Shown here in pieces: positions 15,601 through 35,662 of a stretch of DNA of 63,861 bases. Under the pieces are notes generated by a model. That model made no database searches. It saw only the letters and a list, made by a program, of their open reading frames with translations, and was not told the origin of the DNA. A program made the position numbers and the translations under genes. Location of the stretch: assembly GCA_003246335.1 (NCBI GenBank), contig QKAR01000033.1, positions 1 to 63,861 on the forward strand. The letters are read 5' to 3'. Source of the DNA: Spirochaetales bacterium (lineage in GTDB: Bacteria; Spirochaetota; Spirochaetia; Treponematales; Treponemataceae). How positions within the stretch are numbered: the stretch's first letter is position 1; each line of letters begins with the position of its first letter.

Positions 15601-15663
15601 TAATACCTTACGCCTGTATTCTGGGTTTGTTGCCCGGAAACGCATTTTTCTTGGAGCAGATTG

Positions 15664-18062: not shown

Positions 18063-18082
18063 GGTCGGGGTAGGTAGAGAAT

Positions 18083-20169: not shown

Positions 20170-20176
20170 TACCTTC

Positions 20177-20241: not shown

Positions 20242-20272
20242 CACTGTAAGAAGACCGCTTTAGGAGTTTTGT

Positions 20273-22213: not shown

Positions 22214-22224
22214 GACTTTCTGAT

Positions 22225-22264
22225 TTCGCGAAGCGCGACCGTCATGACGACCGCGCTTCGCGAA
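22225..22264 (+). other. Long intercistronic hairpin between permease and DapA-family gene
   Basis: A 13-bp perfect stem (22225-22237 with 22252-22264; TTCGCGAAGCGCG and its complement). The loop itself contains the palindrome CGTCATGACG. No U-run follows directly. It may terminate partially, block 3' exonucleases, or be an RNase III site. Confidence 0.65.
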
Positions 22265-22306
22265 CCTCTTTTCGATTTTCCTCTTTTAACGCAAGGAGTC
22301 ACCAGT

Positions 22307-23197
22307 ATGGAAATCAAGGGTATAATTCCGCCCATTATCACGCCCATGTTCGAGGACGAGTCGGTTAACTACGACGAGCTTCGCAACCAAGTCCGCCGCC
22401 AGATCGACGGCGGCGTCCACGGCATTTTCTGCTTCGGCACGAACGGCGAATGCTATATTCTTTCCGACGACGAAAAACAGAAAATTCTCGAGACCGTCGT
22501 CGACGAGGTAAAAGGACGCGTGCCCGTATACGCGGGAACCGGCAGCGTCGGCACGAAAGACACGATTCGCCTGTCGCTCATGGCGAAGGAAGCCGGCGCC
22601 GACGTCCTTTCGATCATCTGCCCGTATTTCGCCGCAGCCTCGCAGGACGAGATTTTCGCGCACTATAAGGCAGTCGCCGAGGCCGTTCCCATGCCGATCG
22701 TCATTTATAACATTCCCGCTCGAACCGGCAACAGCATCGCCCCGGGAACGATCGCGAAGCTTTCCGCCATCGATAACGTCGTCGGCGCCAAGGACTCAAG
22801 CGGCAACTTCGACAACATGCTGCAGTACATCGAGCAGACGGCCGGCAAGGATTTCTCGATCCTTTCGGGCAACGACTCGCTCATCCTGTGGAACCTTTTG
22901 GCGGGCGGGAAGGGCGGCATCGCCGGTTGCGCGAACATCTATCCCAAAACCCTCGTCGGCGTGTACGAAAGCTTCATGAAGGGCGATCTCGTGAAGGCGA
23001 AGGAATATCAGGATTCAATCCGCGCGCTCCGCAATAATTTCAAGTACGGAAACCCGAATACCATCGTCAAAAAGGCGGTCAATCTGCTGGGTTATCCCGT
23101 CGGTCCCTGCCGCGCGCCGTTTAACTTCATTTCCGAAGAGGGTATCGCGGCGATCAAGAAGACGCTCGAAGCCGATACCGCGCGGGGCATGAGGTAA
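22307..23197 (+). CDS. DapA-family (dihydrodipicolinate synthase-like) lyase/aldolase
   Basis: A 296-residue TIM-barrel class I aldolase. The family signatures GTNGECYILSDDEK (pyruvate-binding site) and YNIPARTGNSI are present, as is the Schiff-base lysine in VVGAKDSSGNFD. The family includes DHDPS, N-acetylneuraminate lyase and keto-deoxy-sugar aldolases. Inside a sigma-54 catabolic operon it is more likely a catabolic keto-acid aldolase than lysine synthesis; its substrate is unknown. ATG 22307 is chosen because AAGGAG lies 8 nt ahead; longer in-frame starts run into the hairpin. The YhcH gene follows after 3 bp. Confidence 0.88.
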   Translation: MEIKGIIPPIITPMFEDESVNYDELRNQVRRQIDGGVHGIFCFGTNGECYILSDDEKQKILETVVDEVKGRVPVYAGTGSVGTKDTIRLSLMAKEAGADVLSIICPYFAAASQDEIFAHYKAVAEAVPMPIVIYNIPARTGNSIAPGTIAKLSAIDNVVGAKDSSGNFDNMLQYIEQTAGKDFSILSGNDSLILWNLLAGGKGGIAGCANIYPKTLVGVYESFMKGDLVKAKEYQDSIRALRNNFKYGNPNTIVKKAVNLLGYPVGPCRAPFNFISEEGIAAIKKTLEADTARGMR

Positions 23198-23200
23198 GGC

Positions 23201-23656
23201 ATGATACTCGCGAAAACCGACGACCTCGCCCGCTACGATAGCCTTTGCCCCAACTTCGCGGCCGCGTTCGCCTTTCTCGCCCGTACTGACCTCGCGACGC
23301 TTCCCGACGGAAAGCACGAAATCGACGGGAAAAACGCGTGGGCCGTGTTGAGCTCTTACGATACCCGCGATTACGGCGAAGGAAAGTTCGAGACCCATCG
23401 GGATTACATCGACGTGCAGTACTTGCTTTCCGGCGAGGAAATCATTTATTGGTCGGATTCCGCGACGATGAGCTCCACGGGATACAACGACGATACCGAC
23501 AAGGAAAACTACACCGACCCGGAATCACCGATCGGAATCTGCATGAGTCCGGGCGTCGCCATGGTGCTGTTCCCTCGAGATGCCCATAAGGCGAATTGCC
23601 GCGTGTCGGATATGCGCCGCGTGCGCAAAGTCCTGCTCAAGATTCGGATAGACTAA
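23201..23656 (+). CDS. YhcH/YjgK/YiaL (EbgC-like) family protein
   Basis: A 151-residue cupin-type protein. Recognisable parts are GKHEIDGKNAWAVLSSYDT, FETHRDYIDVQYLLSGEE, and the C-terminal MVLFPRDAHKANCRV. Characterised relatives bind sugars or sugar acids and sit in sialate, xylulose and related catabolic operons, some acting as anomerases or isomerases. As the last gene of the operon and only 3 bp behind the aldolase gene, it probably helps equilibrate a substrate form. A strong terminator follows. Confidence 0.85.
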   Translation: MILAKTDDLARYDSLCPNFAAAFAFLARTDLATLPDGKHEIDGKNAWAVLSSYDTRDYGEGKFETHRDYIDVQYLLSGEEIIYWSDSATMSSTGYNDDTDKENYTDPESPIGICMSPGVAMVLFPRDAHKANCRVSDMRRVRKVLLKIRID

Positions 23657-23674: not shown

Positions 23675-23718
23675 AGCCGTTCTTATTCCGTTGCCCCGGG
23701 TAAGGACGGCTTTTTTTT
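23675..23718 (+). terminator. Rho-independent terminator of the sigma-54 operon
   Basis: An 11-bp stem AGCCGTTCTTA/TAAGGACGGCT (23675-23685 with 23701-23711) followed by T8. Separates the four-carbon acid operon from the malate dehydrogenase operon. Confidence 0.93.
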
Positions 23719-23843
23719 CGTTAAAAAGATAAAAAATATCAATAAAATACTATCTATATAATTTACACTAATGTTGAAAATTGCTATAGTGACCGCAACA
23801 AAAGGAAACGATACGTAGACTTTTAAGGAAAGGACGGTTGCAT

Positions 23844-24788
23844 ATGGGTAAGAAGGTCACAATTATTGGCGCAGGAAGCGTTGGATCCACGATTGCGTAC
23901 ACCATGGCGGTGAACGGTATCGCCTCCGAAATCGTTATGGTCGATATTAACGTCGAAAAAGCATTGGGCGAAGCCCTCGATATCCGCCAGGGAACCCCGT
24001 TTTGTCCCCCGGTTAATATTTACGCGGGAAGCTATGAGGACGCGAAACACTCCGATATCGTCATCCTTACTTCGGGAATGGCGCGAAAGCCCGGCATGAC
24101 CCGCCTCGATCTCGCCCAGACGAACGTCAACATCACGAAGCAAATCATCCCCGAAATCACGAAAGTCGCCCCTGACGCCGTATACGTCATCGTCGCGAAC
24201 CCGGTCGACATTCTGACCTATCAGTTCCATAAAACGAGCGGTTTGCCCGCGAACCGCATCGTCGGATCGGGAACCATCCTCGACACGGCCCGCCTGCGCG
24301 CGCGGCTCGCCGAGTACTACAAGATCAACCAAACGAACGTGCACGCCTACGTGTTCGGCGAGCACGGCGACAGCTCTTTCGTGCCGTGGTCGCTCGCGAA
24401 TATCTCGACGATCCCGATCGACGAGTATCACGAGTGCATTTCCCGCGACATCATCGTTCCCCCGCTCGTTCACGACGAAGTCGAGACGTACATCCGCAAG
24501 TCCGGCGGCAAGGTCATCGAGCGCAAGGGCGCGACGTTCTACGCGATCGCCGTATCCGTCTGCCATATCTGCAAGTGCGTGTTCAACGGCCTCGACACGA
24601 CGCTGACCGTCTCCACGCTCGCGGACGGCGAGTACGGCATTAGCGACGTGTGCCTCAGCACGCTCGCCACCGTCGGCGAGGGCGGGATCACCGGACGCAT
24701 CTCCGCGCCGCTCACCCCGACCGAAACCGAGTCGCTCCGCAAGAGCGCGGACGCCCTGAAGTCCGTCATCGCTCAGCTTAAGTTCTAA
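23844..24788 (+). CDS. Malate/L-lactate dehydrogenase family, probably malate-specific
   Basis: A 314-residue NAD-dependent 2-hydroxyacid dehydrogenase of the LDH/MDH superfamily: GAGSVGSTIAY nucleotide loop, VDINVEKALG, catalytic GEHGDSSF. In the substrate loop the sequence is SGMARKPGMTRLDL. Lactate dehydrogenases have Gln at the position of Arg81 (AxxQKPGETR), and Arg there is the classic malate/oxaloacetate determinant. With fumarase next door and a fumarate reductase in the same operon, malate dehydrogenase is the better call, although automatic tools may label it lactate dehydrogenase. ATG 23844 is preferred over TTG 23838. A TATAAT at 23757-23762 may be its -10 box. Confidence 0.82.
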   Translation: MGKKVTIIGAGSVGSTIAYTMAVNGIASEIVMVDINVEKALGEALDIRQGTPFCPPVNIYAGSYEDAKHSDIVILTSGMARKPGMTRLDLAQTNVNITKQIIPEITKVAPDAVYVIVANPVDILTYQFHKTSGLPANRIVGSGTILDTARLRARLAEYYKINQTNVHAYVFGEHGDSSFVPWSLANISTIPIDEYHECISRDIIVPPLVHDEVETYIRKSGGKVIERKGATFYAIAVSVCHICKCVFNGLDTTLTVSTLADGEYGISDVCLSTLATVGEGGITGRISAPLTPTETESLRKSADALKSVIAQLKF

Positions 24789-24806
24789 GGCGCTCCGGAG
24801 GATAGG

Positions 24807-26183
24807 ATGGAATACCGCATCGAGCACGACTCAATGGGCGAGGTCAAGGTACCCGCCGACAAATACTGGGCTGCGCAGACCGAGCGCAGCCACGAGAACT
24901 TCCGCATCGGCGTCGGCATCGAGACGATGCCCCGCGAGATTACGCACGCGTTCGGCGTCCTCAAAAAGGCCGCCGCGATGGCGAATAACGCGATCAAGCC
25001 CGAGAAGATGACCGCCGAGAAGCTCGCCGCGATCGGCGCTTCCTGCGACGAGGTCATCGCCGGCAAACTCAACGACCATTTTCCCCTCGTGGTGTGGCAG
25101 ACGGGCTCGGGCACGCAGTCCAACATGAACGCGAACGAGGTCATCGCGAACCGCGGCAACGAGATCGCCGGTTCGAAGCTCCTCCACCCGAACGACGACG
25201 TCAACATGAGTCAGTCGTCGAACGACACGTTCCCCACCGCCATGCACATCGCCGCGGTCGTCTCCATCGAGGACAAATTATTCCCGGCGATCGACGCGCT
25301 CGTCGCGACCTTCAAGCGGCTCGAGAAAGAGCACGAGGGAATCGTGAAAAGCGGCCGTACCCACTTGCAGGACGCGACCCCGATCACGTTCTCCCAGGAA
25401 ATTTCCGGATGGCGTTCCTCGCTCGAGCGCGACCGCGAACTCCTTGCGCTCTCGCTCCCGCCGCTCCACGAGCTCGCTCTCGGCGGAACCGCGGTCGGAA
25501 CCGGGCTCAACGCCCCCAAAGGCTTCGACGTAAAAGTCGCCGAGGCGGTCTCGACCCTGACCGGCAAGCACTTCGTGACCGCCGCGAATAAATTCCACGC
25601 GCTCACCAGCAAGGACGAGCTCGTGTTCGCTCACGGCGCCGTCAAGGCGCTCGCCTGCGACTGCATGAAAATCGCGAACGACGTTCGCTGGCTCGCGTCG
25701 GGCCCGCGCGACGGCCTCGGCGAGATCACGATCCCCGAGAACGAGCCCGGATCCTCGATCATGCCCGGAAAGGTGAACCCCACGCAGTGCGAGGCGCTGA
25801 CGATGGTCGCCGTTCAGGTCATGGGCAACGACGTCGCGGTCGGCATGGCCGCGAGTCAGGGAAACTTCCAGCTCAACGTGTTCATGCCCGTCGCGATCTA
25901 CAATTTCCTTCAGTCGGTCAGGCTCCTTTCAGAGGCGATCGTGTCGTTCAACGATAATTGCGCCGTGGGAATCAAGGCCGACCGTGACAAGATGCGCCAC
26001 AACCTCCATAACTCGCTCATGCTCGTGACCGCGCTCAATCCCTACATCGGGTACGAGAACGCCGCGAAGACGGCGAAGAAGGCGTTCAAGGACGGCGTGT
26101 CGCTCAAGGAAGCCTGCGTCTCCCTCGGATTCCTCACTGCAGAGAAATTCGACGAGGTGTTCCATCCCGAGCAAATGGCGTAA
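24807..26183 (+). CDS. fumC: Class II fumarate hydratase
   Basis: A 458-residue, iron-independent fumarase. The superfamily signature [15 protein letters not shown] is perfect, and [26 protein letters not shown] and [11 protein letters not shown] match the three active-site regions of FumC. It converts malate to fumarate (reversible) in the cytoplasm. It starts 18 bp after malate dehydrogenase and is followed 42 bp later by the Hdr genes, so it supplies fumarate to the reductase encoded in the same operon. Confidence 0.96.
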
Positions 26184-26225
26184 GGGCTCGACCCGAACGA
26201 AAACGAAATTAAGGAAGCATTGCGA

Positions 26226-27026
26226 ATGATTTACAGTTACTTTCCGGGCTGCACGCTCAAGACACAAGCCAAGGAGCTGGACGTCTACGCGCGGGAAAGC
26301 GCGCGGGCGCTCGGTTTCGAGCTCGAGGAAATCCCCGACTGGCAATGTTGCGGCGGCACCTATCCTCTGGTTAAGGACGAGATCGCGACGAAGCTGTCGT
26401 CGGTACGCGCCCTGGTCGCCGCGCGTGACGCGGGTCGGGACCTCGCGACCCTGTGCTCCGCGTGCCACAACGTCATTAAGCAAGTGAACGACGACATGAA
26501 AAACGACGCGGTGATTTCCTCCCGCGCGAACAATTACCTCTCGCTCGACGTGCCCTACGCGGGCGAGGCGAGCGTCGTCCATTATCTCGAGATCCTGCGC
26601 GACAAGGTTGGCTTCGGCGAACTCGCGAAAAAAGTCGTGAAGCCGCTCACGGGCCGGAAGATCGGCGCCTATTACGGCTGCCTCCTGCTTCGCCCCGGCC
26701 GCGTGATGGGAATGGACAACCCCGAGAACCCGAAAATTCTCGAGGACTTTATCCGGGCGATCGGCGCCGAGCCGGTCGTCTACTCGATGCGCAACGAATG
26801 TTGCGGCGGCTACGTGACGATCGAGGATAAGGCGCTCGCCGCGAAAAAAAGCGGCGCCGTGCTCGACGACGCGGCGGACTCCGGCGCCGACACGCTCGTG
26901 ACCGCCTGTCCCCTGTGCCTCTATAACTTGGGCAAGAACGTCGGGAGTCGCGACGTACGCGTCGTATATTTCACCGAGCTCCTCGCGGAGGCGCTCGGCG
27001 TGAAGGGGGAAGCCGTCCATGCATGA
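26226..27026 (+). CDS. hdrB: HdrB-like subunit (two CCG domains, heterodisulfide reductase type)
   Basis: A 266-residue protein with two complete CCG motifs: C9, C41-C42, C77, C80 and C152, C192-C193, C228, C231. In methanogen HdrB these hold two noncubane [4Fe-4S] clusters that reduce the CoM-S-S-CoB disulfide. No membrane segment, so cytosolic. HdrC overlaps by 8 bp. In bacterial Flx-Hdr complexes HdrB is the high-potential exit of the bifurcating machine. Here a fumarate reductase replaces DsrC as the obvious partner. ATG 26226 is used; TTG 26220 is closer to the AAGGA box and possible. No cofactor thiol is known for this organism, so the natural acceptor is uncertain. Confidence 0.88.
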   Translation: MIYSYFPGCTLKTQAKELDVYARESARALGFELEEIPDWQCCGGTYPLVKDEIATKLSSVRALVAARDAGRDLATLCSACHNVIKQVNDDMKNDAVISSRANNYLSLDVPYAGEASVVHYLEILRDKVGFGELAKKVVKPLTGRKIGAYYGCLLLRPGRVMGMDNPENPKILEDFIRAIGAEPVVYSMRNECCGGYVTIEDKALAAKKSGAVLDDAADSGADTLVTACPLCLYNLGKNVGSRDVRVVYFTELLAEALGVKGEAVHA

Positions 27027-27405
27027 CGATAACGAACGAGACGACATAATCAGGAGCGCGGGCGTCAACCCGCGCAAGTGCATGCTGTGCGGCAAGTGCT
27101 CGGCGACGTGCCCTTCGTACGAGGAGATGGAGTACCATCCGCACGAGTTCGTCAACATGGTCGAGCGCGGCGACATCGAGCCGCTGAAGAAATCGACATC
27201 GCTTTGGAAGTGCCTTTCGTGCTTCGCCTGCCTCGAGCGCTGCCCCCGCGGCGTCGACCCGGTGAAGTTCGTCGAGGCCGTGCGCGTTTCCGTCGTCAGG
27301 TCGGCCGGTCAGGATCATCTGCGGCCAGAAGCCATTCCGGAAATTCTTGACGAGACCCTGCCTCAGCAGGCGATCGTCAGCGCGTTCCGGAAATACAGGA
27401 AATAA
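27019..27405 (+). CDS. hdrC: HdrC-like ferredoxin subunit
   Basis: A 128-residue protein with two classical [4Fe-4S] motifs, C21xxC24xxC27xxxC31P and C65xxC68xxC71xxxC75P. No transmembrane part, as in soluble HdrC. It passes electrons between the HdrA flavin and HdrB. It overlaps hdrB by 8 bp and is followed by hdrA after 9 bp, so the three are translated together and presumably form the HdrABC core. Confidence 0.92.
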   Translation: MHDDNERDDIIRSAGVNPRKCMLCGKCSATCPSYEEMEYHPHEFVNMVERGDIEPLKKSTSLWKCLSCFACLERCPRGVDPVKFVEAVRVSVVRSAGQDHLRPEAIPEILDETLPQQAIVSAFRKYRK

Positions 27406-27414
27406 GGAACAACC

Positions 27415-29406
27415 ATGCAGAGAATTGGCGTATTTGTCTGTCATTGCGGAACGAACATCGCCGCGACGGTCGATGTTCACGCCGTCGCCGAGACGCTCAA
27501 GGGCGAGCCCGGCGTGGTGTTCGCGACGGACTATCAGTATATGTGCTCAGAGGCCGGGCAGAACATCTTGAAGGACGCGGTCAAGGAACATAACCTTACC
27601 GGCGCGGTCATTTGCTCCTGCTCGCCGCGCATGCACGAAAACACGTTCAGAAAGGCCGCGGCCCAGGCGGGCCTCAACTCATACCTCGTAGAGGTCGCGA
27701 ATATCCGCGAGCAGTGCTCGTGGATTCATAAGGACATCGCGCAGGGAACCGAGAAGGCGATAGCGCTCGGTAAGGCCGCCGTGGCGAAGGTTCACCTCAA
27801 CTCCCCGCTGCAGCCCGGCGAAAGCGCCGTAACGAAACGCGCCCTCGTCATCGGCGGCGGCATCGCCGGCATCCAGACCGCGCTCGATATCGCGGACGCT
27901 GGATTCGACGTCGACATCGTGGAGCGCGAGCCAACGATCGGCGGCAAGATGACTCAGATCGACAAGACGTTTCCGACGCTCGACTGCGCGGCGTGCATCC
28001 TGACCCCGAAAATGGTCGACTGCGCCCAGAACGAGAAAATACACATTCACTCGTACAGCGAGGTCGCCTCGGTGAAGGGTTTCGTCGGCAACTTCACCGT
28101 GTCCATCCGCAAGAAAGCCCGCTACGTCGACGCGACGAAATGCACCGGCTGCGGCGCCTGCGTCGAGAAATGCCCGCAGAAAAAAATCCCGAGCGAGTTT
28201 AACCTCGGGATGGCGAACCGCACCGCGGTGTACATTCCCTTCGCGCAGGCCGTCCCTAAAATCGCGACGATCGACGCGGAACATTGCACGATGATGAAGA
28301 CCGGAAAGTGCGGTATCTGCTCGAAAGTCTGCACCGCCGGCGCCATCGACTACAAGCAACAGGACACGATCATCGAGGAAAAATACGGCGCGATCGTCGT
28401 GGCCACCGGCTATAACCCGATCAAGCTCGACGAATTCGACGAGTTCGCCTATTCGCGGAGCAAGGACGTCGTCACGTCGCTCGAGTTCGAGCGCCTGACG
28501 AACGCCGCCGGCCCGACCGCCGGCAAGCTCCTTCGACCCTCCGACGGCAAGCACCCGCACACCATCGTGTTCGTGCAGTGCGTCGGGAGCCGCGACACCA
28601 CTGGCTGCGGCAAAGAGTACTGCTCGAAAATTTGCTGCATGTACACCGCGAAGCACGCGATGCTCACGCGGGAAAAATATCCTGACACCGACGTCTACGT
28701 CTTCTACATCGACATCCGATCGCCCGGGAAAAACTACGACGAGTTCTACCGTCGCGCGGTGGAGCAGTACGGTGTTCATTACATCAAGGGCATGGTCGGA
28801 AAGGTCGTGCCGAAGTCCGACGGTACCCTGCGCGTCCAGGCGTCGGACCTCATCATGGACCGACAGCTCGTCATCGACGCGGATATGGTCGTGCTCGCCG
28901 CCGCCATCGAGGCGGACAAGGGCGCGCGGCCCCTCGCGACGATGCTCACCGCGAGCATGGACACGAACGACTTCTTCACCGAGGCGCACGCGAAGCTTCG
29001 CCCCGTCGAGAGCCCGACCGCCGGCATCTTCCTTTCGGGCGCCTGCCAAGGCCCGAAGGATATCCCCGATACGGTCGCCCAGGCGGGAGCTGCAGCGAGC
29101 AAGGTCATCGGCCTTTTGGTCAAGGACAAGCTCCTCGGCAATCCCTGCGTAGCGCAGTCCGACGAGCTCATGTGCAACGGCTGCTCGCAGTGCGAGAAAG
29201 TTTGCCCCTACGGCGCGATAACCTACGTCGACAAGGAATTCAAGCAGCCGAACCGAACGGTGCTCGTCCGCCGCGTCGCGCAGGTAAATCCCGCGGTTTG
29301 CCAAGGCTGCGGCGCGTGCACGGTCACCTGTCCTTCCGGCGCGATGGACCTCAAGGGATTTTCCACGAAACAAATCATGGCGGAGGTTGACGCGATATGC
29401 CTGTGA
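27415..29406 (+). CDS. hdrA: HdrA-like flavin electron-bifurcating subunit
   Basis: A 663-residue HdrA of the full methanogen-type layout. The N-terminal cluster domain has C9HC11 and YMCSEAGQ, CSCSPRMHE and REQCSW. The thioredoxin-reductase-like FAD domain has GGGIAG (147-152) and TFPTLDCAACILTPKM. Ferredoxin inserts are at C243/246/249/253 and C291/299/302/306. Two C-terminal [4Fe-4S] motifs are at C587/590/593/597 and C629/632/635/639. HdrA holds the FAD that splits electrons into a high-potential branch (HdrC-HdrB) and a low-potential branch to ferredoxin. All cluster ligands I can check are present, so it should be active. Its 3' end overlaps flxD by 10 bp. Confidence 0.94.
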   Translation: MQRIGVFVCHCGTNIAATVDVHAVAETLKGEPGVVFATDYQYMCSEAGQNILKDAVKEHNLTGAVICSCSPRMHENTFRKAAAQAGLNSYLVEVANIREQCSWIHKDIAQGTEKAIALGKAAVAKVHLNSPLQPGESAVTKRALVIGGGIAGIQTALDIADAGFDVDIVEREPTIGGKMTQIDKTFPTLDCAACILTPKMVDCAQNEKIHIHSYSEVASVKGFVGNFTVSIRKKARYVDATKCTGCGACVEKCPQKKIPSEFNLGMANRTAVYIPFAQAVPKIATIDAEHCTMMKTGKCGICSKVCTAGAIDYKQQDTIIEEKYGAIVVATGYNPIKLDEFDEFAYSRSKDVVTSLEFERLTNAAGPTAGKLLRPSDGKHPHTIVFVQCVGSRDTTGCGKEYCSKICCMYTAKHAMLTREKYPDTDVYVFYIDIRSPGKNYDEFYRRAVEQYGVHYIKGMVGKVVPKSDGTLRVQASDLIMDRQLVIDADMVVLAAAIEADKGARPLATMLTASMDTNDFFTEAHAKLRPVESPTAGIFLSGACQGPKDIPDTVAQAGAAASKVIGLLVKDKLLGNPCVAQSDELMCNGCSQCEKVCPYGAITYVDKEFKQPNRTVLVRRVAQVNPAVCQGCGACTVTCPSGAMDLKGFSTKQIMAEVDAICL

Positions 29407-29840
29407 ACGACGCAACGCAATTTCGGCCCAAGATAGTGGCCTTCTGCTGTAACTGGTGCTCGTACGCGGGCGCCGACCTCGCGGGCACGAACCGCCTGAG
29501 CTACCCGGCCGACGTGAAGATCATTCGCGTGCCGTGCTCGTGCCGCGTGAACCCGCTATTCATCCTGCGCGCGTTTCAGCGCGGCGCCGACGGCGTCATC
29601 ATGTGCGGCTGCCATCCCGGCGACTGCCATTACACGAGCGGCAACTATTTCGCGCGCCGCCGCATGACGCTCCTTTTCTCCATGCTGAGCTATCTCGGCG
29701 TCGAGAAGGGACGAACCCGCGTCGAGTGGGTCTCTGCCGCGGAGGGCGCGAAGTTCGCCGCCACGATGAACGATTTCGCGGAAACCGTAGCTAAGCTCGG
29801 CCCGAACCGGAAACTGGAGGACCTCAGATGCAAAGCGTAA
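29397..29840 (+). CDS. MvhD/FlxD-like [2Fe-2S] linker subunit
   Basis: A 147-residue MvhD-family protein (hydrogenase iron-sulfur subunit) with CCNWCSYAGADLAG, VPCSCRVNP and MCGCHPGDCHY, the cysteines that bind its [2Fe-2S] cluster. In MvhADG-HdrABC the subunit links the electron-donor module to HdrA. Here no hydrogenase subunits follow. Instead Flx-type NADH modules are encoded, so the protein corresponds to FlxD. It overlaps hdrA by 10 bp and the next gene by 13 bp. Confidence 0.93.
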   Translation: MPVNDATQFRPKIVAFCCNWCSYAGADLAGTNRLSYPADVKIIRVPCSCRVNPLFILRAFQRGADGVIMCGCHPGDCHYTSGNYFARRRMTLLFSMLSYLGVEKGRTRVEWVSAAEGAKFAATMNDFAETVAKLGPNRKLEDLRCKA

Positions 29841-30805
29841 TGATCGAACGGGCGAAGGCCCTGCTCGCGGACGGCACCGTCGCGCGGGTCATCGGCTGGA
29901 AAGCAGGCGAGTTCGACTACGATCAGACTCCGGCGACTTTCTCGACGGCGGAGGAGCTTGACGCGGGATTCGTCTTCGACGATTTCTCCGCCGCGAACCT
30001 TTCGAAGTATCTCATTAAGGAAACGCTGAAAGAGGGCAAGACGCTCGTATTTCTCAAGCCCTGCGACAGCTACAGCCTCAATCAGCTGGTCTCCGAGCAC
30101 CGCATTAAGCGCGAGCGCGTGTACGCGATCGGCGTGGCGTGCGACGGGAAGCTCGACGCCGCTAAGGCGATAGAGTCCGGGGCCGAGGCCGCTACCTCCA
30201 TGAAAAGCGACGGCAAGAACGTGACGGCACAAACGCTCTACGGGACTAAAACCCTTCTCTTCGCGGACGCGCTCGCGGAGCGATGCGTTTCCTGCAAGAG
30301 CCGCGCGCACGTCGCCTGCGACGAGATCATCGGCGCGGAGGGCGAAAAGCGCGACGCCGGCCGATTCGACCTCGTCGCGAAGCTCGAGGCCATGAGCGAG
30401 GCTGAGCGCTTCGACTTCTGGCGCGGCGAGCTTTCGCGCTGCGTTCGCTGCAACGCGTGCCGCAACGTGTGCCCCGCGTGCACCTGCGAGAAATGCGTTT
30501 TCGACAACGACGCGTCGGGCGTCGCTCAAAAGGCCGCGGTCGTCCCGTTCGAGGAAAATATGTTCCATATCATCCGCGCGTTCCACGTCGCTGGCCGATG
30601 CACCGACTGCGGCGAATGCTCGCGCGTGTGCCCGCAGAATATACCGCTACACCTTCTGAACCGGAAGTTCATCAAGGATATCGACGAACTCTACGGCGAC
30701 TACCAGGCCGGCGAGGACGCCGAGGCGAAGGGGCCTCTCGGCTCGTTCAAGACCGACGACGTCGAGCCCTCGGTCGTTCACGCGCGCGAAGGGGGAAAGA
30801 AATGA
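29828..30805 (+). CDS. FlxC-like 4Fe-4S dicluster protein
   Basis: A 325-residue soluble protein. The N-terminal half resembles FdhB/FrhB-type beta subunits (KTLVFLKPCDSYSLNQLV). The C-terminal half has two ferredoxin motifs, CVRCNACRNVCP followed by CTCEKC, and CTDCGECSRVCP. Position between flxD and the AsrA-like flxB, as in the FlxABCD-HdrABC cluster described in Desulfovibrio vulgaris, supports FlxC. It probably moves electrons from FlxB/FlxA to the MvhD-HdrA entry. The gene overlaps flxD by 13 bp and flxB by 4 bp (ATGA), a sign of stoichiometric translation. Confidence 0.82.
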   Translation: MQSVMIERAKALLADGTVARVIGWKAGEFDYDQTPATFSTAEELDAGFVFDDFSAANLSKYLIKETLKEGKTLVFLKPCDSYSLNQLVSEHRIKRERVYAIGVACDGKLDAAKAIESGAEAATSMKSDGKNVTAQTLYGTKTLLFADALAERCVSCKSRAHVACDEIIGAEGEKRDAGRFDLVAKLEAMSEAERFDFWRGELSRCVRCNACRNVCPACTCEKCVFDNDASGVAQKAAVVPFEENMFHIIRAFHVAGRCTDCGECSRVCPQNIPLHLLNRKFIKDIDELYGDYQAGEDAEAKGPLGSFKTDDVEPSVVHAREGGKK

Positions 30806-31830
30806 CGGTAAAATTACCCGTAGCGAAACTGGACGATTTTTTCGCCGCTCTCTCCGCGAAAACCGCCGTGTATCTCCCGTCCGACAACTCGGCCGGTCAG
30901 TCGGAATTCCGTCGATGGGAATCCGGCGTGAAGCTTTCCTCCCGGCTCAACACGACCCGCAGCGCGAAGGATTTTTTCTTCCCGCAAACCGAGGATATCG
31001 TCGACTTCAACATGAAGGGCAAGACGATCGAGGTGATCGACCGGCGGACCGAATCCGAGGACTTCGTCGTGTTCGGCGCGCGCGCGTGCGACGTCGCGAG
31101 CTTCGCGATCCTCGACAGCGTCTACCTCGCCGACCCCGTGGACTCGTTTTACAAAAACCGCCGCGAGCACGGCGTAGTCGTTTCGCTCGCGTGCGCGAGG
31201 CCGGACTCAACCTGTTTCTGCCCGCTTTTCGGGATCGACGCGACGGAGCCCTCGGGCGACGTTACCGGATGGATCGCCGGCGAGGATCTCTACCTCAAGC
31301 CCAATACCGAAAAAGGAACGGACTTGGTCGCCTCTCTTGGCGCGGTCGCGTCCGAGGCGAAGGACCTTTCCGCCGTCGATAGGCAGAAGAAAGAGACCGG
31401 CGAGATACTCGCGCGCCTTCCGTTCGCGAAGCGCGACATGGGAAAGTTCGGCGGCGAGAAGCTCATCGAGCTTTTCAATTCGCCGAAATGGGCTGGCCTC
31501 TCGGAGGCCTGCCTCGGCTGCGGAACCTGCACTTTCGTGTGCCCGACCTGCCAGTGCTACGACATTCGCGACTTCGACAGCGGTCACGGCGTGAAGCGAT
31601 TCCGCTGCTGGGACAGCTGCATGTATTCGGATTTCACGAAGATGGCGCACGGCAACCCGCGCCTTACCCAAGTGGAGCGCTTCCGCCAGCGGTTCATGCA
31701 TAAGCTCGTGTACTATCCGTCCAACAACGGCGGAAAGTTCGGCTGCGTCGGGTGCGGCAGGTGCCTTAAGTCTTGCCCCATCAGCATGAATATCGTCAAG
31801 GTAATGAAAGCCCTTTCGGAGGAGAAATAA
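30802..31830 (+). CDS. FlxB-like 4Fe-4S protein (AsrA family)
   Basis: A 342-residue protein of the anaerobic sulfite reductase A family. It has an N-terminal domain with RACDVASFAILD and the Cys-rich FCPLFGI region, then two [4Fe-4S] motifs near the C terminus (CLGCGTCTFVCPTCQC and CVGCGRCLKSCP) with RCWDSCMYSDF between them, all standard for this family. With FlxA it forms the NAD(P)H-oxidising entry module. No siroheme subunit (AsrC) is encoded nearby, so this is not a sulfite reductase. The start ATG overlaps the flxC stop; the stop overlaps the flxA start (TAATG). Confidence 0.86.
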   Translation: MTVKLPVAKLDDFFAALSAKTAVYLPSDNSAGQSEFRRWESGVKLSSRLNTTRSAKDFFFPQTEDIVDFNMKGKTIEVIDRRTESEDFVVFGARACDVASFAILDSVYLADPVDSFYKNRREHGVVVSLACARPDSTCFCPLFGIDATEPSGDVTGWIAGEDLYLKPNTEKGTDLVASLGAVASEAKDLSAVDRQKKETGEILARLPFAKRDMGKFGGEKLIELFNSPKWAGLSEACLGCGTCTFVCPTCQCYDIRDFDSGHGVKRFRCWDSCMYSDFTKMAHGNPRLTQVERFRQRFMHKLVYYPSNNGGKFGCVGCGRCLKSCPISMNIVKVMKALSEEK

Positions 31831-32657
31831 TGGACGCCGATACTCTCATTCCCAAGGTCGCCGTGGTGACCGACATCAGGACAGAGACCCCCGACGTTAA
31901 GACGTTCCGCGTCGTCGGGACGGACGGGAAAAAACTCTTCGAGCACATTCCCGGCCAGTGCGCGATGCTTTCCGTTCCCGGCGTCAGCGAGGCGATGATT
32001 TCGATAACGTCCTCCCCGACGAACCGGGAGTTCATGGAATTCAGCGTGAAGAAATGCGGTTGCCTTTCCGGTTGGCTTCATGCCATGGAAGTCGGCCAGC
32101 AGATTACCGTGCGCGGCCCCTACGGCAACGGTTTCCCCGTCGAGACTGCGTTCAAGGGAAAGGACCTCCTTTTCATCGCCGGCGGCATTGGGCTCGCGCC
32201 GCTTCGCTCGGTCATCAATTACGTCCGCGACCATCGCGAGAACTACGGGAAAATCCGCATCGTGTACGGGTCCCGGTCGAAGGACGACCTCGTCGCCTAC
32301 CGGGAAATCGAGCAGGAGTGGATGGGAACGCCGAACGCCGAGGTTAACCTCACGATCGACAACGCGCAGGAAGGCTGGGACGGCCACGTCGGCTTCATCC
32401 CGAACTACGTGAAGGAACTTCAGCCCGATACCGGCATGACGGTCGTCATGTGCGGACCGCCGGTCATGATCAAGTTCACCCTCGCTGGCCTCAAGGAGCT
32501 CGGGTTCAAGGACACCCAGGTGTATACCACGATGGAGCTTCGCATGAAGTGCGGCGTCGGCAAATGCGGCCGCTGCAATATCGGCGACAAGTACGTCTGC
32601 AAGGACGGCCCCGTATTCCGGTTCGACGAGCTCGGCGAGCTCCCGAACGAGTATTGA
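31830..32657 (+). CDS. FlxA-like NAD(P)H/FAD-binding subunit (AsrB family)
   Basis: A 275-residue ferredoxin-reductase-type flavoprotein. The FAD-binding barrel (about 1-105) is followed by an NAD-binding half with LLFIAGGIGLAPLRSVI and VVMCGPPVMIKFT, and a C-terminal [2Fe-2S] site C241-x4-C246-xx-C249-x7-C257, the dihydroorotate dehydrogenase K/AsrB arrangement. It should oxidise NADH or NADPH and pass electrons through FlxB, FlxC and FlxD to HdrA. Which nucleotide is used cannot be read by eye. It closes the Flx set (order D-C-B-A) and is followed by frdB after 15 bp. Confidence 0.88.
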   Translation: MDADTLIPKVAVVTDIRTETPDVKTFRVVGTDGKKLFEHIPGQCAMLSVPGVSEAMISITSSPTNREFMEFSVKKCGCLSGWLHAMEVGQQITVRGPYGNGFPVETAFKGKDLLFIAGGIGLAPLRSVINYVRDHRENYGKIRIVYGSRSKDDLVAYREIEQEWMGTPNAEVNLTIDNAQEGWDGHVGFIPNYVKELQPDTGMTVVMCGPPVMIKFTLAGLKELGFKDTQVYTTMELRMKCGVGKCGRCNIGDKYVCKDGPVFRFDELGELPNEY

Positions 32658-32672
32658 CAGGAGATCTTAACT

Positions 32673-33347
32673 ATGGAAGACATGGTTCACGTTTATTTTT
32701 TCGGAAAGCAGTACGAGGTTCCCGCGAGCCTCACGATCATGAACGCGATGGAATACGCGGGATATCAGCTCGTCCGCGGTTGCGGATGCCGCAACGGTTT
32801 CTGCGGCGCGTGCGCGACGATTTACCGCATCAAGGGCGACGTTGCCCTTAACGCGTGTCTCGCGTGCCAGACCAAGGTCGAGGAGGGAATGTTCGTCGCG
32901 ACGCTCCCGTATTTCCCTCTCGTCAAGCAGCAGTACGACATCGAGAAGGTCAAGCCGACCGAGCAGATCATGATGCAGCTGTATCCAGAGATTTATTCCT
33001 GCGTCGGCTGCAACGCCTGCACGAAGGCCTGCACCCAGGAACTTAAGGTCATGCAGTACATCGCCTACGCGCAGCGCGGCGAGTACGAGAAATGCGCCGA
33101 GGCGTCGTTCGACTGCGTCATGTGCGGCGTATGCTCGTCCCGCTGCCCCGCGGGCATCTCGCATCCGCAAGTCGCGCTTCTCGCGCGCCGGTTGAACGGC
33201 AAGTATCTCGCTCCCAAGAGCGCGCATCTTGCCGACCGCGTTAAGGAAATCAACGACGGCACCTTCAAGGACCTCATCGCGGACCTGATGGGCAAGCCGC
33301 TCGCCGATATCAAAGAATTGTATAACACCCGGGAAATCGAGAAATAA
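32673..33347 (+). CDS. Fumarate reductase/TfrB-like iron-sulfur subunit
   Basis: A 224-residue protein. It has an N-terminal plant-ferredoxin [2Fe-2S] domain with RGCGCRNGFCGAC (C37, C39, C44, C47) and more Cys at 62 and 65, then two [4Fe-4S] motifs at C110/113/116/120 and C148/151/154/158P. Classical FrdB/SdhB end with a [3Fe-4S] site for quinones. Here both C-terminal sites have full four-Cys ligation and no membrane anchor gene follows, so quinol use is unlikely. Methanogen TfrB carries a fused HdrB-like CCG domain that is absent here; a free HdrB is encoded upstream instead. It feeds electrons to the flavoprotein encoded 11 bp downstream. Confidence 0.84.
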   Translation: MEDMVHVYFFGKQYEVPASLTIMNAMEYAGYQLVRGCGCRNGFCGACATIYRIKGDVALNACLACQTKVEEGMFVATLPYFPLVKQQYDIEKVKPTEQIMMQLYPEIYSCVGCNACTKACTQELKVMQYIAYAQRGEYEKCAEASFDCVMCGVCSSRCPAGISHPQVALLARRLNGKYLAPKSAHLADRVKEINDGTFKDLIADLMGKPLADIKELYNTREIEK

Positions 33348-33358
33348 GGAGACCCGAC

Positions 33359-34963
33359 ATGTACACGAACGAAATGCTTGAGTCCATGAAAAAGGTGGAG
33401 GCGGCCCGCAAGGCGAACGCCGACTTCGAGCCTCGGCGGATGACCGCCGACGAAAAGGACGCGCTCCTCTCGACGTACCATCCCGACTATAAGCAAAGCG
33501 AATTCGAGGTTCTGAAAATCGGGCCGAACAAGGGCGAGAAAGTTCCCCTTGAGCTCGCCGCCCTTCTGCAGGGAAAGAGCCGCGTCAATCCCGACGAGAT
33601 AGACCTTTCCAAGCCCGACTACGACGTCGACGTACTCGTTATCGGCGGCGGCGGCGCGGGGTCCTCGGCGGCGATCGAGGCGCATAACGCCGGCGCGAAC
33701 GTGATGATCGTCACGAAGCTCCGCATCGGCGACGCGAACACCATGATGGCCGAGGGCGGCATCCAGGCAGCCGATAAGCCGAACGACTCTCCGGCGATCC
33801 ACTATCTCGACGCCTTCGGCGGCGGGCATTTCGCCGCGAAGCCCGAGCTCCTTAACAAGCTCGTGACCGAGGCTCCCGAGGCAATTCAGTGGCTTAACGA
33901 CCTCGGCGTCGAGTTCGATAAGGCGAGCGACGGAACGATGATCACGACGCACGGCGGCGGCACGAGCCGCAAGCGCATGCACGCGGCGAAGGATTACTCC
34001 GGAGCCGAGATCATGCGCACGCTGCGCGACGAGGTCCTTAACCGCGGGATCCCCGTGGTGGATTTCACCGCCGCGATCGAGCTCATTCTCGACGATGCGG
34101 GCAACGCCGCCGGCGCCGTCCTCGTCAACATGGAAACGAAGCAAACCCTGATCGCCCGCGCGAAGACCGTCATCGTGGCGACCGGCGGCGCTGGGCGTCT
34201 CCACTATCAGGGTTTCCCGACGTCGAACCATTACGGCGCGACAGCGGACGGACTCGTGCTCGCCTATCGCGTCGGCGCGAAACTCCTTTACGCCGATACG
34301 CTGCAGTACCATCCCACCGGCGCGGCTTTCCCCTCGCAGATTTTCGGCGCCCTCGTCACCGAGAAAGTTCGCTCCCTCGGGGCGAAACTCGTTAACGCGG
34401 ACGGCGAGGTGTTTATGCACCCGCTCGAGACCCGCGACGTGTGCGCCGCCTCGATTATCCGCGAGTGCGACGACCGCAAGAAAGGCCTTGAGACCGGACA
34501 GGGACTCGGCCTTTGGCTCGACACCCCGATGATCGAGCTCAAGAGCGGCGAGGGAACCATCGAGAAGCGCATACCCGCGATGATGCGCATGTTCGGAAAG
34601 TACGGTATCGACATCCGCAAGGATCCGATCATGGTATATCCGACCCTGCACTATCAGAACGGCGGTATCGACATCGACGCGACGACCATGTCCGGCGTCA
34701 AGAACCTTTTCGTCGCGGGCGAGGCGGTCGGAGGCATTCATGGCCGAAATCGACTGATGGGAAACTCCCTTCTCGACATCATCGTCTTCGGGCGGGACGC
34801 CGGTAAGGCCGCCTCAGCAGCGTCGAAAAACGCCGCGCCCGGAAAGCTTTCGCTTGAGCATGTGCGGAAGTTCGAAAAAGAGCGCGCATCCGCCGGAATC
34901 GCGACGGACGTTCTTTCTCCGAAACTTCTCCCGAGTTACGCGCATCGGGACGGCGAGCTGTAA
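33359..34963 (+). CDS. Soluble fumarate reductase/TfrA-like flavoprotein
   Basis: A 534-residue FAD protein with no signal peptide, heme domain or transmembrane segment. The dinucleotide fold VIGGGGAGSSAA begins at about residue 94, after an unusual 88-residue N-terminal extension. The flavin and fumarate-site signatures are intact: MMAEGGIQAA, QYHPTGAAFP, LVTEKVRSLG, the RDVCAAS arginine, LHYQNGGID and GRNRLMGNSLLD. Together these supply the His, Thr/Glu and Arg residues that bind fumarate and deliver the proton in FrdA. Alternatives are succinate dehydrogenase direction or L-aspartate oxidase; the frdB partner and Hdr-Flx genes argue for fumarate reduction. The extension may dock it to the complex. 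Confidence 0.87.
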   Translation: MYTNEMLESMKKVEAARKANADFEPRRMTADEKDALLSTYHPDYKQSEFEVLKIGPNKGEKVPLELAALLQGKSRVNPDEIDLSKPDYDVDVLVIGGGGAGSSAAIEAHNAGANVMIVTKLRIGDANTMMAEGGIQAADKPNDSPAIHYLDAFGGGHFAAKPELLNKLVTEAPEAIQWLNDLGVEFDKASDGTMITTHGGGTSRKRMHAAKDYSGAEIMRTLRDEVLNRGIPVVDFTAAIELILDDAGNAAGAVLVNMETKQTLIARAKTVIVATGGAGRLHYQGFPTSNHYGATADGLVLAYRVGAKLLYADTLQYHPTGAAFPSQIFGALVTEKVRSLGAKLVNADGEVFMHPLETRDVCAASIIRECDDRKKGLETGQGLGLWLDTPMIELKSGEGTIEKRIPAMMRMFGKYGIDIRKDPIMVYPTLHYQNGGIDIDATTMSGVKNLFVAGEAVGGIHGRNRLMGNSLLDIIVFGRDAGKAASAASKNAAPGKLSLEHVRKFEKERASAGIATDVLSPKLLPSYAHRDGEL

Positions 34964-35055
34964 GAAACTAAATCGACGGGATCGGTCGCGCCGCTCGCGA
35001 CGCCCTTTCCCGCGATCTCAACCGCCATTCGCGCGGTGCCAATAAGGAGCCCACT

Positions 35056-35340
35056 ATGGTAATTGCAAGCATTTTAGAGACGCTCATGATCGTGTGTTTC
35101 GGCATCTCATGGCCGCTTTCGATCATGCGTTCCTATCGTTCCCGATCCACGAAGGGAAAAAGCCTCATGTTTATGTGCTTTATCCTCTTCGGCTATTTCT
35201 GCGGGCTCGCGTCGAAAATGATTTCGCATACGTACAATCTCGCGTTCTGGTTTTATTTCCCGAACATCGTCATGGTGTCCACCGATATCTGCCTCTATTT
35301 CCGCAATAAGAAAATAGAGGCAACGGCCGAGGGAAAATAA
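35056..35340 (+). CDS. Small three-helix membrane protein, PQ-loop/SemiSWEET-like
   Basis: A 94-residue protein with three hydrophobic helices (about residues 4-22, 36-55 and 60-82) and charged ends. The segment SWPLSIMRSYRSRSTKGKSL follows the PQ-loop pattern (P-x-n-basic-S-x-x-G-x-S) with PL in place of PQ. One 3-helix unit equals half a SWEET transporter, so a homodimer (SemiSWEET-like) is plausible. It follows the fumarate reductase gene by 92 bp and precedes the [2Fe-2S] protein by 11 bp, so it may export or import a C4 acid or simply be a hitch-hiker. No function is established for this type. Confidence 0.7.
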   Translation: MVIASILETLMIVCFGISWPLSIMRSYRSRSTKGKSLMFMCFILFGYFCGLASKMISHTYNLAFWFYFPNIVMVSTDICLYFRNKKIEATAEGK

Positions 35341-35351
35341 GGGAGGATCGT

Positions 35352-35603
35352 ATGAAAATAGAAATTTGCATGGGAAGTTCGTGCCACGTGAAGGGGTCCA
35401 AGACCGTCCTTGAATTGCTTCGGTCGCAGATCAAAGAGCATAAGCTCGAAAACAAGGTTCAGCTCGCCGGTTCGGTGTGCCTCGGTCAGTGCAAATCCGA
35501 GGGCACGAACATGAAAATCGACGGGGAAATCGTAACCGGGATAAACGCCGGCAATTTCTCGGAGTTTTTTAAGAGTCGCGTCCTGAGCCCGCTCGGAATC
35601 TGA
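35352..35603 (+). CDS. Thioredoxin-fold [2Fe-2S] protein (NuoE C-terminal-like)
   Basis: An 83-residue protein consisting only of the thioredoxin-like [2Fe-2S] ferredoxin fold found in NuoE and NADH-dependent hydrogenase subunits. The four ligands are in CMGSSCHVKG (C-x4-C) and CLGQCKSEG (C-x3-C). Full NuoE has an extra N-terminal helical domain, which is missing. It could be an electron carrier serving the Flx-Hdr-Frd proteins upstream. The start ATG has GGGAGG 6 nt before it. A strong terminator follows, so this is the last gene of the 12-kb operon. Confidence 0.84.
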   Translation: MKIEICMGSSCHVKGSKTVLELLRSQIKEHKLENKVQLAGSVCLGQCKSEGTNMKIDGEIVTGINAGNFSEFFKSRVLSPLGI

Positions 35604-35630
35604 TTTTTTCCCATTGACGTAATGGCGACG

Positions 35631-35662
35631 CGCGGTATCCTATCGGGTACCGCGTTTTTTTT
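35631..35662 (+). terminator. Rho-independent terminator of the mdh-fum-hdr-flx-frd operon
   Basis: A 10-bp stem CGCGGTATCC/GGGTACCGCG (one G-T pair), a 4-base loop and T8. It is the first strong terminator after 23718, consistent with one long transcript. Confidence 0.92.

Follow-up and report, generated by a model that had tools for sequence, protein, structure and literature searches.

A conserved malate dehydrogenase-fumarase-Hdr-Flx-Frd operon from a Spirochaetales bacterium: a predicted NADH-driven, ferredoxin-coupled soluble fumarate reductase

Results

The window (the whole stretch of DNA analysed, 63,861 nucleotides; contig QKAR01000033.1 of a Spirochaetales bacterium) contains 13 co-directional genes on the plus strand, mdh-fumC-hdrBCA-flxDCBA-frdBA followed by the genes of a PQ-loop-like membrane protein and of a thioredoxin-like [2Fe-2S] ferredoxin (Table 1); gene starts were picked by comparison with homologues. 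The first eleven genes (MDH to FrdA) overlap or are separated by no more than 42 bp, and a gap of 92 bp separates frdA from the PQ-loop-like gene. An earlier sequence-only reading had named MDH, FumC, HdrBCA, FlxDCBA and FrdBA on one strand in this order, and all were present as described; it had counted 12 genes where 13 were found. Of the two strong terminators that it had placed around the operon, the downstream one was recovered by the scan, and the upstream one was a hairpin read by eye only, missing from the scan because its loop exceeds the limit of 8. Terminator-like sites were as frequent as expected (19 found, 18.2 expected), so it is its strength that speaks for the downstream terminator; the promoter-like site carries little weight, 7 such sites having been found against 4.7 expected.

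Table 1: Features of the operon and its boundaries (positions in the window).
Feature	Position	Strand	Basis
Terminator-like hairpin, long loop, T-run, closes upstream gene	about 23675..23718	+	by eye
Promoter-like site TTTACA-17-TATAGT, TG before -10	23762..23790	+	consensus scan only
LDH/MDH-family dehydrogenase, predicted malate dehydrogenase	23844..24788	+	Arg at LDH-102 position
FumC, class II fumarase	24807..26183	+	TIGR00979 712 bits, cut-off 665
HdrB, two complete CCG domains	26226..27026	+	PF02754; 8rvv_B E 5.8e-32
HdrC, two [4Fe-4S] motifs	27019..27405	+	family match, motif reading
HdrA, predicted bifurcating FAD subunit	27415..29406	+	5odc_A E 1.7e-206, residues 3-660
FlxD (MvhD/FlpD family)	29397..29840	+	PF02662 182.7 bits
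FlxC, Fe-S protein	29828..30805	+	family match
FlxB, sulfhydrogenase-beta/AsrA-like	30802..31830	+	NF040829, PF17179
FlxA, FAD/NAD-binding entry subunit (AsrB/HydG-like)	31830..32657	+	PF00175, PF10418
FrdB-like subunit, one [2Fe-2S] and two full [4Fe-4S] motifs	32682..33347	+	family match, motifs
FrdA-like flavoprotein, 87-aa N-terminal extension	33359..34963	+	PF00890, residues 91-471
94-aa PQ-loop-like membrane protein, candidate succinate exporter	35056..35340	+	PF04193 18.4 bits, cut-off 22
83-aa stand-alone thioredoxin-like [2Fe-2S] ferredoxin (NuoE C-terminal type)	35352..35603	+	PF01257 31.5 bits, cut-off 24.8
Terminator, 11-pair stem then T-run	35630..35655	+	terminator scan

Eighty named loci were compared, 64 holding all nine core genes and 16 cut by a contig end; a search of other genomes for the same gene order had been proposed by the sequence-only reading, and order and strand of the nine genes proved identical in 80/80 as far as the contigs reach, one locus being that of Ruminococcus flavefaciens FD-1. 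The loci are related to each other and so do not count as independent events. Within the window's family the same 30/49 genomes carry both FlxD and FrdA. The sequence-only reading would have been refuted by genomes in which hdr-flx and frd are never linked, a condition that does not apply: the genes lie ≤4.3 kb apart in 27/30 of these carriers, 11–12 kb apart in 2/30 (FrdA to FlxD) and on separate contigs in 1/30. In a phylum sample of 296 genomes FlxD was present in 34/34 FrdA carriers, and 31/296 had FlxD-family matches without operon-type FrdA.

FlxA, FrdB and FrdA are neighbours wherever the sequence of the 80 loci extends far enough, as would suit a plain NADH:fumarate reductase in which FlxAB feed FrdAB directly and HdrA is non-bifurcating or belongs to another reaction; this is quite unlikely, since hdrB, hdrC and hdrA occur in 64/64 loci with full room, and L032 and L033/L131, which are divergent, have them too. 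L033 (seemingly without HdrB) and L034 (seemingly without any Hdr) would, as Hdr-poor variants, have favoured the direct transfer; both were dropped, because more of the contig (L131) revealed HdrC-HdrB-HdrA further upstream of L033, and the sequence immediately 5' of the flxC part of L034 is a stretch of N.

The product of the first gene exceeded the cut-offs of two NCBIfam L-lactate dehydrogenase models (NF000824, 353.8 bits, cut-off 339; TIGR01771, 333.9 bits, cut-off 303.55). Gln at position 102 is the rule for L-lactate dehydrogenase; here Arg aligns with the Gln of solved lactate dehydrogenases, which speaks against such an enzyme. The malate-type Arg was found in 39/39 operon homologues of the first gene among the 80 loci and in 12/12 treponeme operon copies, that of the window included; Gln stands at this position in three paralogues outside the operon. 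Owing to this Arg in the specificity loop, and despite the NCBIfam scores, the gene is taken to encode probably a malate rather than a lactate dehydrogenase, as the name MDH given earlier implied. A fumarase gene was present in 57/61 loci with room for it.

All seven HdrABC and FlxABCD subunits are encoded together, as had been claimed (family matches; locus and 80-locus comparison). HdrA aligns with its methanogen counterpart over the full length, and every alignable locus (70 to 72) keeps the Cys residues of its CxxCxxCxxxC motif; the ten noncubane-cluster Cys of HdrB are kept in 65/65 alignable loci. The best NCBIfam models of HdrB are the SdhE anchor (139.6 bits) and HdrB (125.9 bits), both below cut-off; otherwise families of membrane anchor subunits matched nothing within the operon. 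A membrane protein, the PQ-loop-like one, is nevertheless encoded 3' of frdA.

FrdB retains Cys 36, 41, 44 and 62 in 109/109 and Cys 107, 110, 113, 117, 145, 148, 151 and 155 in 111/111 loci that align. Against the TfrB model FrdB matches 19–92 only, so a TfrB with a C-terminal CCG domain is not what frdB encodes; HdrB separately matches 266–487. The best NCBIfam match of FrdA is TfrA (330 bits, cut-off 718), and every NCBIfam match of FrdA falls below the model cut-off. Its catalytic positions are unchanged in 112/112 homologues; we take them to be E. coli His232, Thr244, Glu245, Arg287, His355 and Arg390. Arg359 is presumably E. coli Arg287, as judged from its 'RD' motif, its invariance and the general pattern of the family; the HMMER alignment with E. 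coli FrdA leaves the two 'RD' motifs unaligned, and the AlphaFold model is poor there (pTM 0.79; 113 residues below pLDDT 50, active-site segments poor).

The fold does not discriminate between fumarate reductase and L-aspartate oxidase (best match 1kf6_A, TM 0.63; 1knp, TM 0.62), which, with the poor model at the active site, counts against the fumarate reductase identity. NadB models match FrdA as well (264 bits). L-Aspartate oxidase (NadB) is a single-subunit enzyme with no known FrdB-type partner; FrdB adjoins FrdA on its 5' side in 79/80 loci, the 80th being at a contig end, the TfrA score is higher than that of NadB, and fumarase is a regular neighbour. That FrdA is an L-aspartate oxidase or another enoate reductase is thus extremely improbable.

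The position of the FAD-linking His of FrdA is Asn in 111/112 homologues. In E. coli FrdA, loss of this His is reported to abolish succinate oxidation and to leave fumarate reduction. The substitution speaks against reverse operation, i.e., succinate oxidation driven by reduced ferredoxin with formation of NADH (confurcation); flavin bifurcation is in principle reversible, yet this direction is very improbable, also in view of the exporter-family genes and the phosphoenolpyruvate carboxykinase (PEPCK) gene described below. In the FrdA tree (63/111 rows, after removal of near-copies and of roughly half the clostridial sequences; quick method, LG+G4) the treponeme label needs at least 2 changes on the starred branches, and transfer of the gene between phyla is likely.

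An AspT-family carrier gene was found 3' of frdA in 66/113 loci and a PQ-loop protein gene in 20, both together never; a PEPCK gene lies downstream of the operon in L050. The small thioredoxin-like ferredoxin gene occurs in 16 other loci. The succinate exporter SucE1 belongs to the AspT family according to the relevant part of PMC9527358, and the alternation of the two genes hints at a succinate exporter of small size, for which the PQ-loop-like protein is a candidate.

DsrC (PF04358) was found in 0/15 genomes, E. coli alone matching among 14 control genomes, in line with the earlier statement that DsrC is missing. UbiA is needed for quinone synthesis; neither the window's genome nor 11 family relatives gave a match (0/12), and over two genome sets it was found in 1/15 and 1/14 (2/29), the controls matching in 14/14. 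This agrees with the claim that no quinone is needed, and the quinone of a quinol:fumarate reductase (FrdABCD, FrdABC, SdhABE) is not expected here. RnfC was found in the window's genome and exceeded the cut-off in 14/15 and 10/14 genomes (24/29); 4/14 gave no match at E 1e-80, and in the genome G221 nothing passed the cut-off.

Discussion

Malate dehydrogenase and fumarase would convert oxaloacetate into fumarate. FlxA would accept hydride from NADH, and FlxB, FlxC and FlxD would carry the electrons to the FAD of HdrA, where they would be split: one branch via HdrC, HdrB and FrdB to FrdA, fumarate being reduced in the cytoplasm, the other via the ferredoxin-like clusters of HdrA to ferredoxin, which Rnf may reoxidise with pumping of ions. 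The summed reaction yields −17.9 to −48.8 kJ/mol, as estimated from redox potentials. That oxaloacetate is converted to succinate by the operon, with energy saved at the last step by ferredoxin-coupled, NADH-driven fumarate reduction, is given a probability of roughly 0.7; such a soluble fumarate reductase is the best-supported reading of the genes, and a prediction. Bifurcation, as proposed in the sequence-only reading, gained support from co-occurrence, gene order, intact catalytic and cluster residues, and from the window's genome, where RnfC but neither DsrC nor UbiA was found; the complex and ferredoxin reduction stay predicted. We infer complex formation, electron route, bifurcation and direction from the genes.

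Ferredoxin-coupled fumarate reduction is favoured by the matching of FrdB and HdrB to different halves of TfrB, where such parts are fused, and by the AspT-like carriers together with the PEPCK gene. Against it count the noncubane-cluster Cys of HdrB, all of which suit a disulfide acceptor equally, the FlxD-family matches without FrdA, the distant FrdA-FlxD pairs, and the genomes without RnfC. Methanogen TfrAB is alike in TfrA and in the two TfrB halves; the window differs in having the CCG part as a separate HdrB, and Flx and HdrA in addition.

Flx-Hdr might instead reduce a small or protein disulfide, with FrdAB drawing on the thiols like methanogen TfrAB, through a thiol pool and with no complex. 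Both noncubane cluster sites of HdrB and the TfrA match of FrdA fit this scheme; a DsrC-like protein is named as an alternative route in a section of PMC11636981, and work cited in PMC10920352 reportedly has DsrC of Desulfovibrio interacting with Flx-Hdr. It is nonetheless unlikely: FrdB lacks the match to the CCG part of TfrB, DsrC was not found in the 15 genomes, and among the conserved operon genes none codes for a known carrier of thiols, the small thioredoxin-like ferredoxin perhaps excepted.

Returning to ferredoxin-coupled reduction, we hold as a tentative extension, with the odds somewhat against it, that the noncubane clusters of HdrB relay electrons into fumarate reductase instead of serving disulfide cleavage, and that the PQ-loop protein is a minimal succinate exporter repeatedly replacing the AspT/SucE-type carrier. 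A relay of this kind, if real, would give an HdrA bifurcation complex a terminal acceptor other than a thiol, namely fumarate.

The NADH dehydrogenase/heterodisulfide reductase FlxABCD-HdrABC of Desulfovibrio vulgaris is said to have been described by Ramos et al. in 2015; the window has the same seven subunits of the same families, but differs in FrdAB standing 3' in the operon and in a genome where no DsrC-type disulfide partner was found. A 2019 preprint by Koendjbiharie and van Kranenburg is reportedly tied to the 'succinate operon' of Pseudoclostridium thermosuccinogenes. In the pertinent sections of a 2020 paper on this organism (PMC7282089) ferredoxin-coupled fumarate reduction by that operon is assumed; the idea is thus already in print and not new here; the sequence-only reading had not been aware of a soluble NADH-dependent fumarate reductase with a full HdrABC-FlxABCD set. 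As described in those sections, the operon holds fumarase, seven Flx-Hdr genes, two frd genes and a possible transporter (PMC7282089); it is listed from fumarase on, and the window adds the malate-type dehydrogenase gene at the 5' and the PQ-loop-like and [2Fe-2S] ferredoxin genes at the 3' side. The likeness is one of gene content as given there, the P. thermosuccinogenes locus being outside the 80. In tubeworm symbionts, according to parts of PMC6315080 and PMC11636981, tfrAB is interspersed with flxABCD-hdrABC, Hdr-Flx feeding a thiol:fumarate reductase is discussed, and direct shuttling is proposed; the modules are the same, and lie there in a reductive TCA cluster with korABCD, here beside malate dehydrogenase and fumarase. 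The tfrAB genes were the exception to co-expression of the symbiont cluster (PMC11636981, in the part on expression), which counts against ferredoxin coupling. A literature search of open-licence papers found no biochemical proof of a Flx-Hdr fumarate reductase.

Conclusion

Beyond the published idea, the gene order at 80 loci, the co-occurrence of FlxD and FrdA, the survey of DsrC, UbiA and RnfC, and the conservation of residues were added; the idea itself is testable in cultivable carriers of the operon. Fermentation in gut and rumen yields succinate as a main product, and the operon was found in many gut bacteria that apparently lack quinones. A soluble ferredoxin-coupled enzyme, if true, would explain fumarate reduction in the mostly UbiA-less carriers, R. 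flavefaciens FD-1 included, and would raise their energy yield. Operon FrdA occurs in 49/245 genomes sampled from the order of R. flavefaciens and in 30/49 of those sampled from the window's family, so that such an enzyme would matter for modelling the flow of hydrogen and succinate.

Operon layout and gene assignment

The operon (Table) would encode an NADH-driven cytoplasmic fumarate reductase, coupled to ferredoxin by bifurcation at HdrA. Its source is a draft genome of 3.05 Mb (163 contigs, 91% complete). Assignment by Pfam and NCBIfam, from the first gene to the 13th: malate/lactate dehydrogenase, FumC, HdrB, HdrC, HdrA, FlxD, FlxC, FlxB, FlxA, FrdB, FrdA, PQ-loop-like protein, thioredoxin-like [2Fe-2S] ferredoxin. 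For the redox subunits, FrdA, HdrB and HdrA among them, many of the NCBIfam scores were under the model cut-offs, so the subunit names denote family resemblance. A terminator was found 3' of the operon by scan, and a hairpin with a T-run was read by eye 5' of it. The sequence-only reading had placed twelve co-directional genes between two terminators; the co-directional run between terminators stands, and the count is corrected to 13, since the end coordinate of that reading is the end of the 13th gene. To judge from their families, the genes upstream may take up and degrade sialic acid or another acid sugar.

Table. Coordinates of the features discussed
Feature	Sequence	Coordinates	Strand	Content
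Upstream genes	window	15661-23656		acid-sugar kinase family (PF07005/PF17042), TRAP membrane protein (PF06808), DHDPS/NanA-family aldolase, YhcH-family protein
Operon	window	23844-35603	+	13 genes, all in the same direction
Small ferredoxin gene	window	35352-35603	+	last operon gene; stand-alone thioredoxin-like [2Fe-2S] ferredoxin, 83 aa
Spirochaete variant	L032	4227-11763		FumAB, 809-aa HdrA-type protein (HdrA2-like) carrying a FlxD match, HdrC, HdrB, FrdB, FrdA
Region past AspT-like gene	L096	12993-19135		by eye: Rex-like gene, two small [2Fe-2S] proteins, ferredoxin-rich protein, genes resembling [FeFe] hydrogenases of the sensory and the catalytic kind

Conservation of gene order

Named prokaryote genomes were scanned with FrdA alignment A1; at least 592 stretches matched, and 588 of those listed encode a relative. 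The best 80 of these at least 588 loci were searched for the same gene order, as the sequence-only reading had proposed: the hdr-flx-frd core was collinear throughout, the nine genes hdrB-hdrC-hdrA-flxD-flxC-flxB-flxA-frdB-frdA having, as far as present, a single order and strand (80/80). All nine were present in 64 of the best 80 loci, and the other 16 were without only genes past the contig end. Among the roomy loci of the best 80, fumC was found in 57/61 and the dehydrogenase in 39/61. MAGs under the labels Clostridia, Oscillospiraceae or Ruminococcus make up the majority of the best 80, and for many the title points to an animal gut; named strains are Ruminococcus flavefaciens FD-1 (L083) and Treponema socranskii (L114). 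FrdA (E 1e-120 or better) was found in 49/245 genomes sampled from the order of R. flavefaciens. The window's family includes Treponema: FrdA of genome G268 is identical to that of a Treponema MAG (L038), and FrdA of G209 to that of T. socranskii.

Co-occurrence, 296 genomes of the window's phylum: FrdA (E 1e-80 or better) in 34, a FlxD-family match in 65; FlxD was present in 34/34 FrdA carriers, and 31 FlxD genomes were without FrdA. In the window's family both sets are the same 30 of 49 genomes; the genomes share kinship, and these counts are not independent events. The FrdA-FlxD distance is 3.5–4.3 kb in 27/30 family carriers, 11–12 kb in G081 and G282; the genes lie on separate contigs in G284.

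Divergent architectures: no FlxABC match was found in L032 (Table). Locus L033, taken together with L131 from the same contig, carries HdrC-HdrB-HdrA, extra HdrA modules, then FlxD, FlxC, FlxB, FlxA, FrdB, FrdA. HdrB is present in both readable architectures (L032; L033/L131); L034 contains three 100-base N runs, one immediately 5' of its flxC part. Adjoining flx-frd, the expanded cluster of L033/L131 has an FrhB-type domain besides its multiple HdrA modules, and FlxD is matched twice. On the FrdA tree treponeme copies occupy two or more positions amid clostridial copies, a placement that suggests transfer between phyla. The operon of L095, a MAG labelled Bacteroidaceae, falls within a clostridial branch, perhaps through a binning error.

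Conserved residues

FrdA was compared with 112 other loci (two genomes taken twice, one further pair with identical FrdA). The positions that we equate with E. coli His232, Thr244, Glu245, Arg287, His355 and Arg390 were kept in 112/112 each. The site aligned with the FAD-linking His, which we take to be His44 in E. coli numbering, carries Asn in 111 loci and His in one; without this His, E. coli FrdA reportedly loses succinate oxidation and retains fumarate reduction. An N-terminal extension of 87 aa was predicted with pLDDT block means of 78–94. The FAD-domain match stops at residue 471 of 534, which suggests that the protein lacks the helical domain found at the C-terminus of SdhA/FrdA. Fold search with the model gave E. 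coli FrdA on top by E-value (TM 0.63), L-aspartate oxidase (1knp) being equal (TM 0.62).

FrdB: the [2Fe-2S] Cys were kept in 109/109 loci, all eight Cys in its pair of CxxCxxCxxxC motifs in 111/111; by the motif rule that tells a [4Fe-4S] cluster from the quinone-side [3Fe-4S] cluster, the second motif is predicted to be of the [4Fe-4S] type. HdrB: 10/10 CCG Cys were kept in 65/65 loci. HdrA: the Cys of four CxxCxxCxxxC-type motifs were kept in every aligning locus (70 to 72), and two further Cys are variable.

First gene: its product scored above two NCBIfam L-lactate dehydrogenase cut-offs, and 59 of the 60 solved structures among the matches listed are labelled lactate dehydrogenase (the remaining one is an unnamed protein). 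Residue 102 decides the substrate (Gln, lactate; Arg, malate). Arg was found in the product, in 39/39 operon homologues (within the best 80 of at least 588 loci) and in 12/12 treponeme operon copies, the window's included; three treponeme paralogues outside the operon have Gln, and neither residue occurs at this site in the paralogue from the window's genome (32% identity). By this residue the gene most likely encodes a malate dehydrogenase, misnamed lactate dehydrogenase by automatic models.

Genes past frdA

Up to 1.5 kb past frdA was surveyed by tblastn in 113 loci: AspT-like carrier – 66; PQ-loop-like protein – 20; both – 0; neither – 27 (five of these with less than 1.4 kb of sequence past frdA). 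With identical FrdA merged, the counts were 65/110, 18/110 and 0 for both. PF06826 was matched by 3/3 AspT-like proteins examined; the Pfam match of the PQ-loop-like protein was under cut-off. The PF06826 family, that of the aspartate:alanine exchangers, includes the succinate exporter SucE1 (PMC9527358). A PF03547-family carrier was found past frdA in L095, and PEPCK in L050. The AspT-like or PQ-loop state changes nine times on the FrdA tree (48 scored rows, 31 and 17), and two genomes of a single genus differ, the carrier being present in G200 (L005), the PQ-loop protein in G268 (L003); this alternation suggests that both may do the same job.

The small [2Fe-2S] ferredoxin had matches in 16 other loci; its gene sits after a Rex-like gene in L035, L045 and L096 (by eye). 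Rex is a repressor sensing NADH.

Electron route, energetics and precedents

Standard potentials are +33 mV (fumarate/succinate), −320 or −280 mV (NADH) and −420 or −500 mV (ferredoxin). The reaction of 2 NADH, fumarate and 2 Fd(ox) was computed from these values at −17.9 to −48.8 kJ/mol, so bifurcation by the predicted complex would be energetically allowed. In the fumarate branch electrons would pass from HdrB to FrdB, because methanogen TfrB is one protein whose halves match the separate FrdB and HdrB of the window's operon, because the top NCBIfam match of HdrB is the SdhE subunit of fumarate reductase (139.6 bits, under cut-off), and because HdrB adjoins FrdB in L032.

The sequence-only reading was not aware of a soluble fumarate reductase with a full HdrABC-FlxABCD set; one was proposed for Pseudoclostridium thermosuccinogenes (PMC7282089). 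As described in that paper, its operon, like the window's, holds fumarase, Flx-Hdr (seven locus tags) and fumarate reductase (two) genes, with a possible succinate transporter; under CO2 limitation expression was about 4-fold up, significance not being reached for every subunit. Ferredoxin coupling is there an assumption credited to an earlier proposal. H2 addition nearly stopped succinate formation, which its authors find fitting; Na2S, given to lower the redox potential, acted in the other direction, a result that they call confusing. CRISPRi has been published for P. thermosuccinogenes (PMC9044749). The same modules are discussed for tubeworm symbionts in PMC6315080 and PMC11636981, tfrAB expression having diverged from the rest of the cluster (PMC11636981). 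In the literature searched (limited coverage; a 2019 preprint may include some) no print record was found of the operon in R. flavefaciens or treponemes, of its malate-type dehydrogenase or of the exporter alternation. Given the P. thermosuccinogenes and tubeworm symbiont precedents, the window's operon is a further, well-conserved example of a kind already proposed.

Genome context

Two sets were searched. The first comprised 15 genomes: that of the window, 11 relatives from its family and three distant carriers. The second comprised 14 genomes behind named loci, R. flavefaciens FD-1 included. DsrC, stated to be absent in the sequence-only reading, was found in neither the window's genome nor the 14 others of the first set (0/15). 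Quinone synthesis requires a UbiA-family prenyltransferase; UbiA was matched in 1/15 (distant carrier G003) and in 1/14 (R. flavefaciens MAG G303), was not found in R. flavefaciens FD-1 or in the window's genome, and was matched in 14/14 control genomes. RnfC was over cut-off in 14/15, the window's genome included (exception: G221), and in 10/14 (E 1e-80; not in MAGs G297, G299, G300 and G306); weak matches occur in 12/14 controls, and only those over cut-off were counted. With RnfC present and UbiA unmatched, quinol-linked fumarate reduction is unlikely in the window's organism, and its gene content indicates that an outlet for reduced ferredoxin exists, by which this would be usable.
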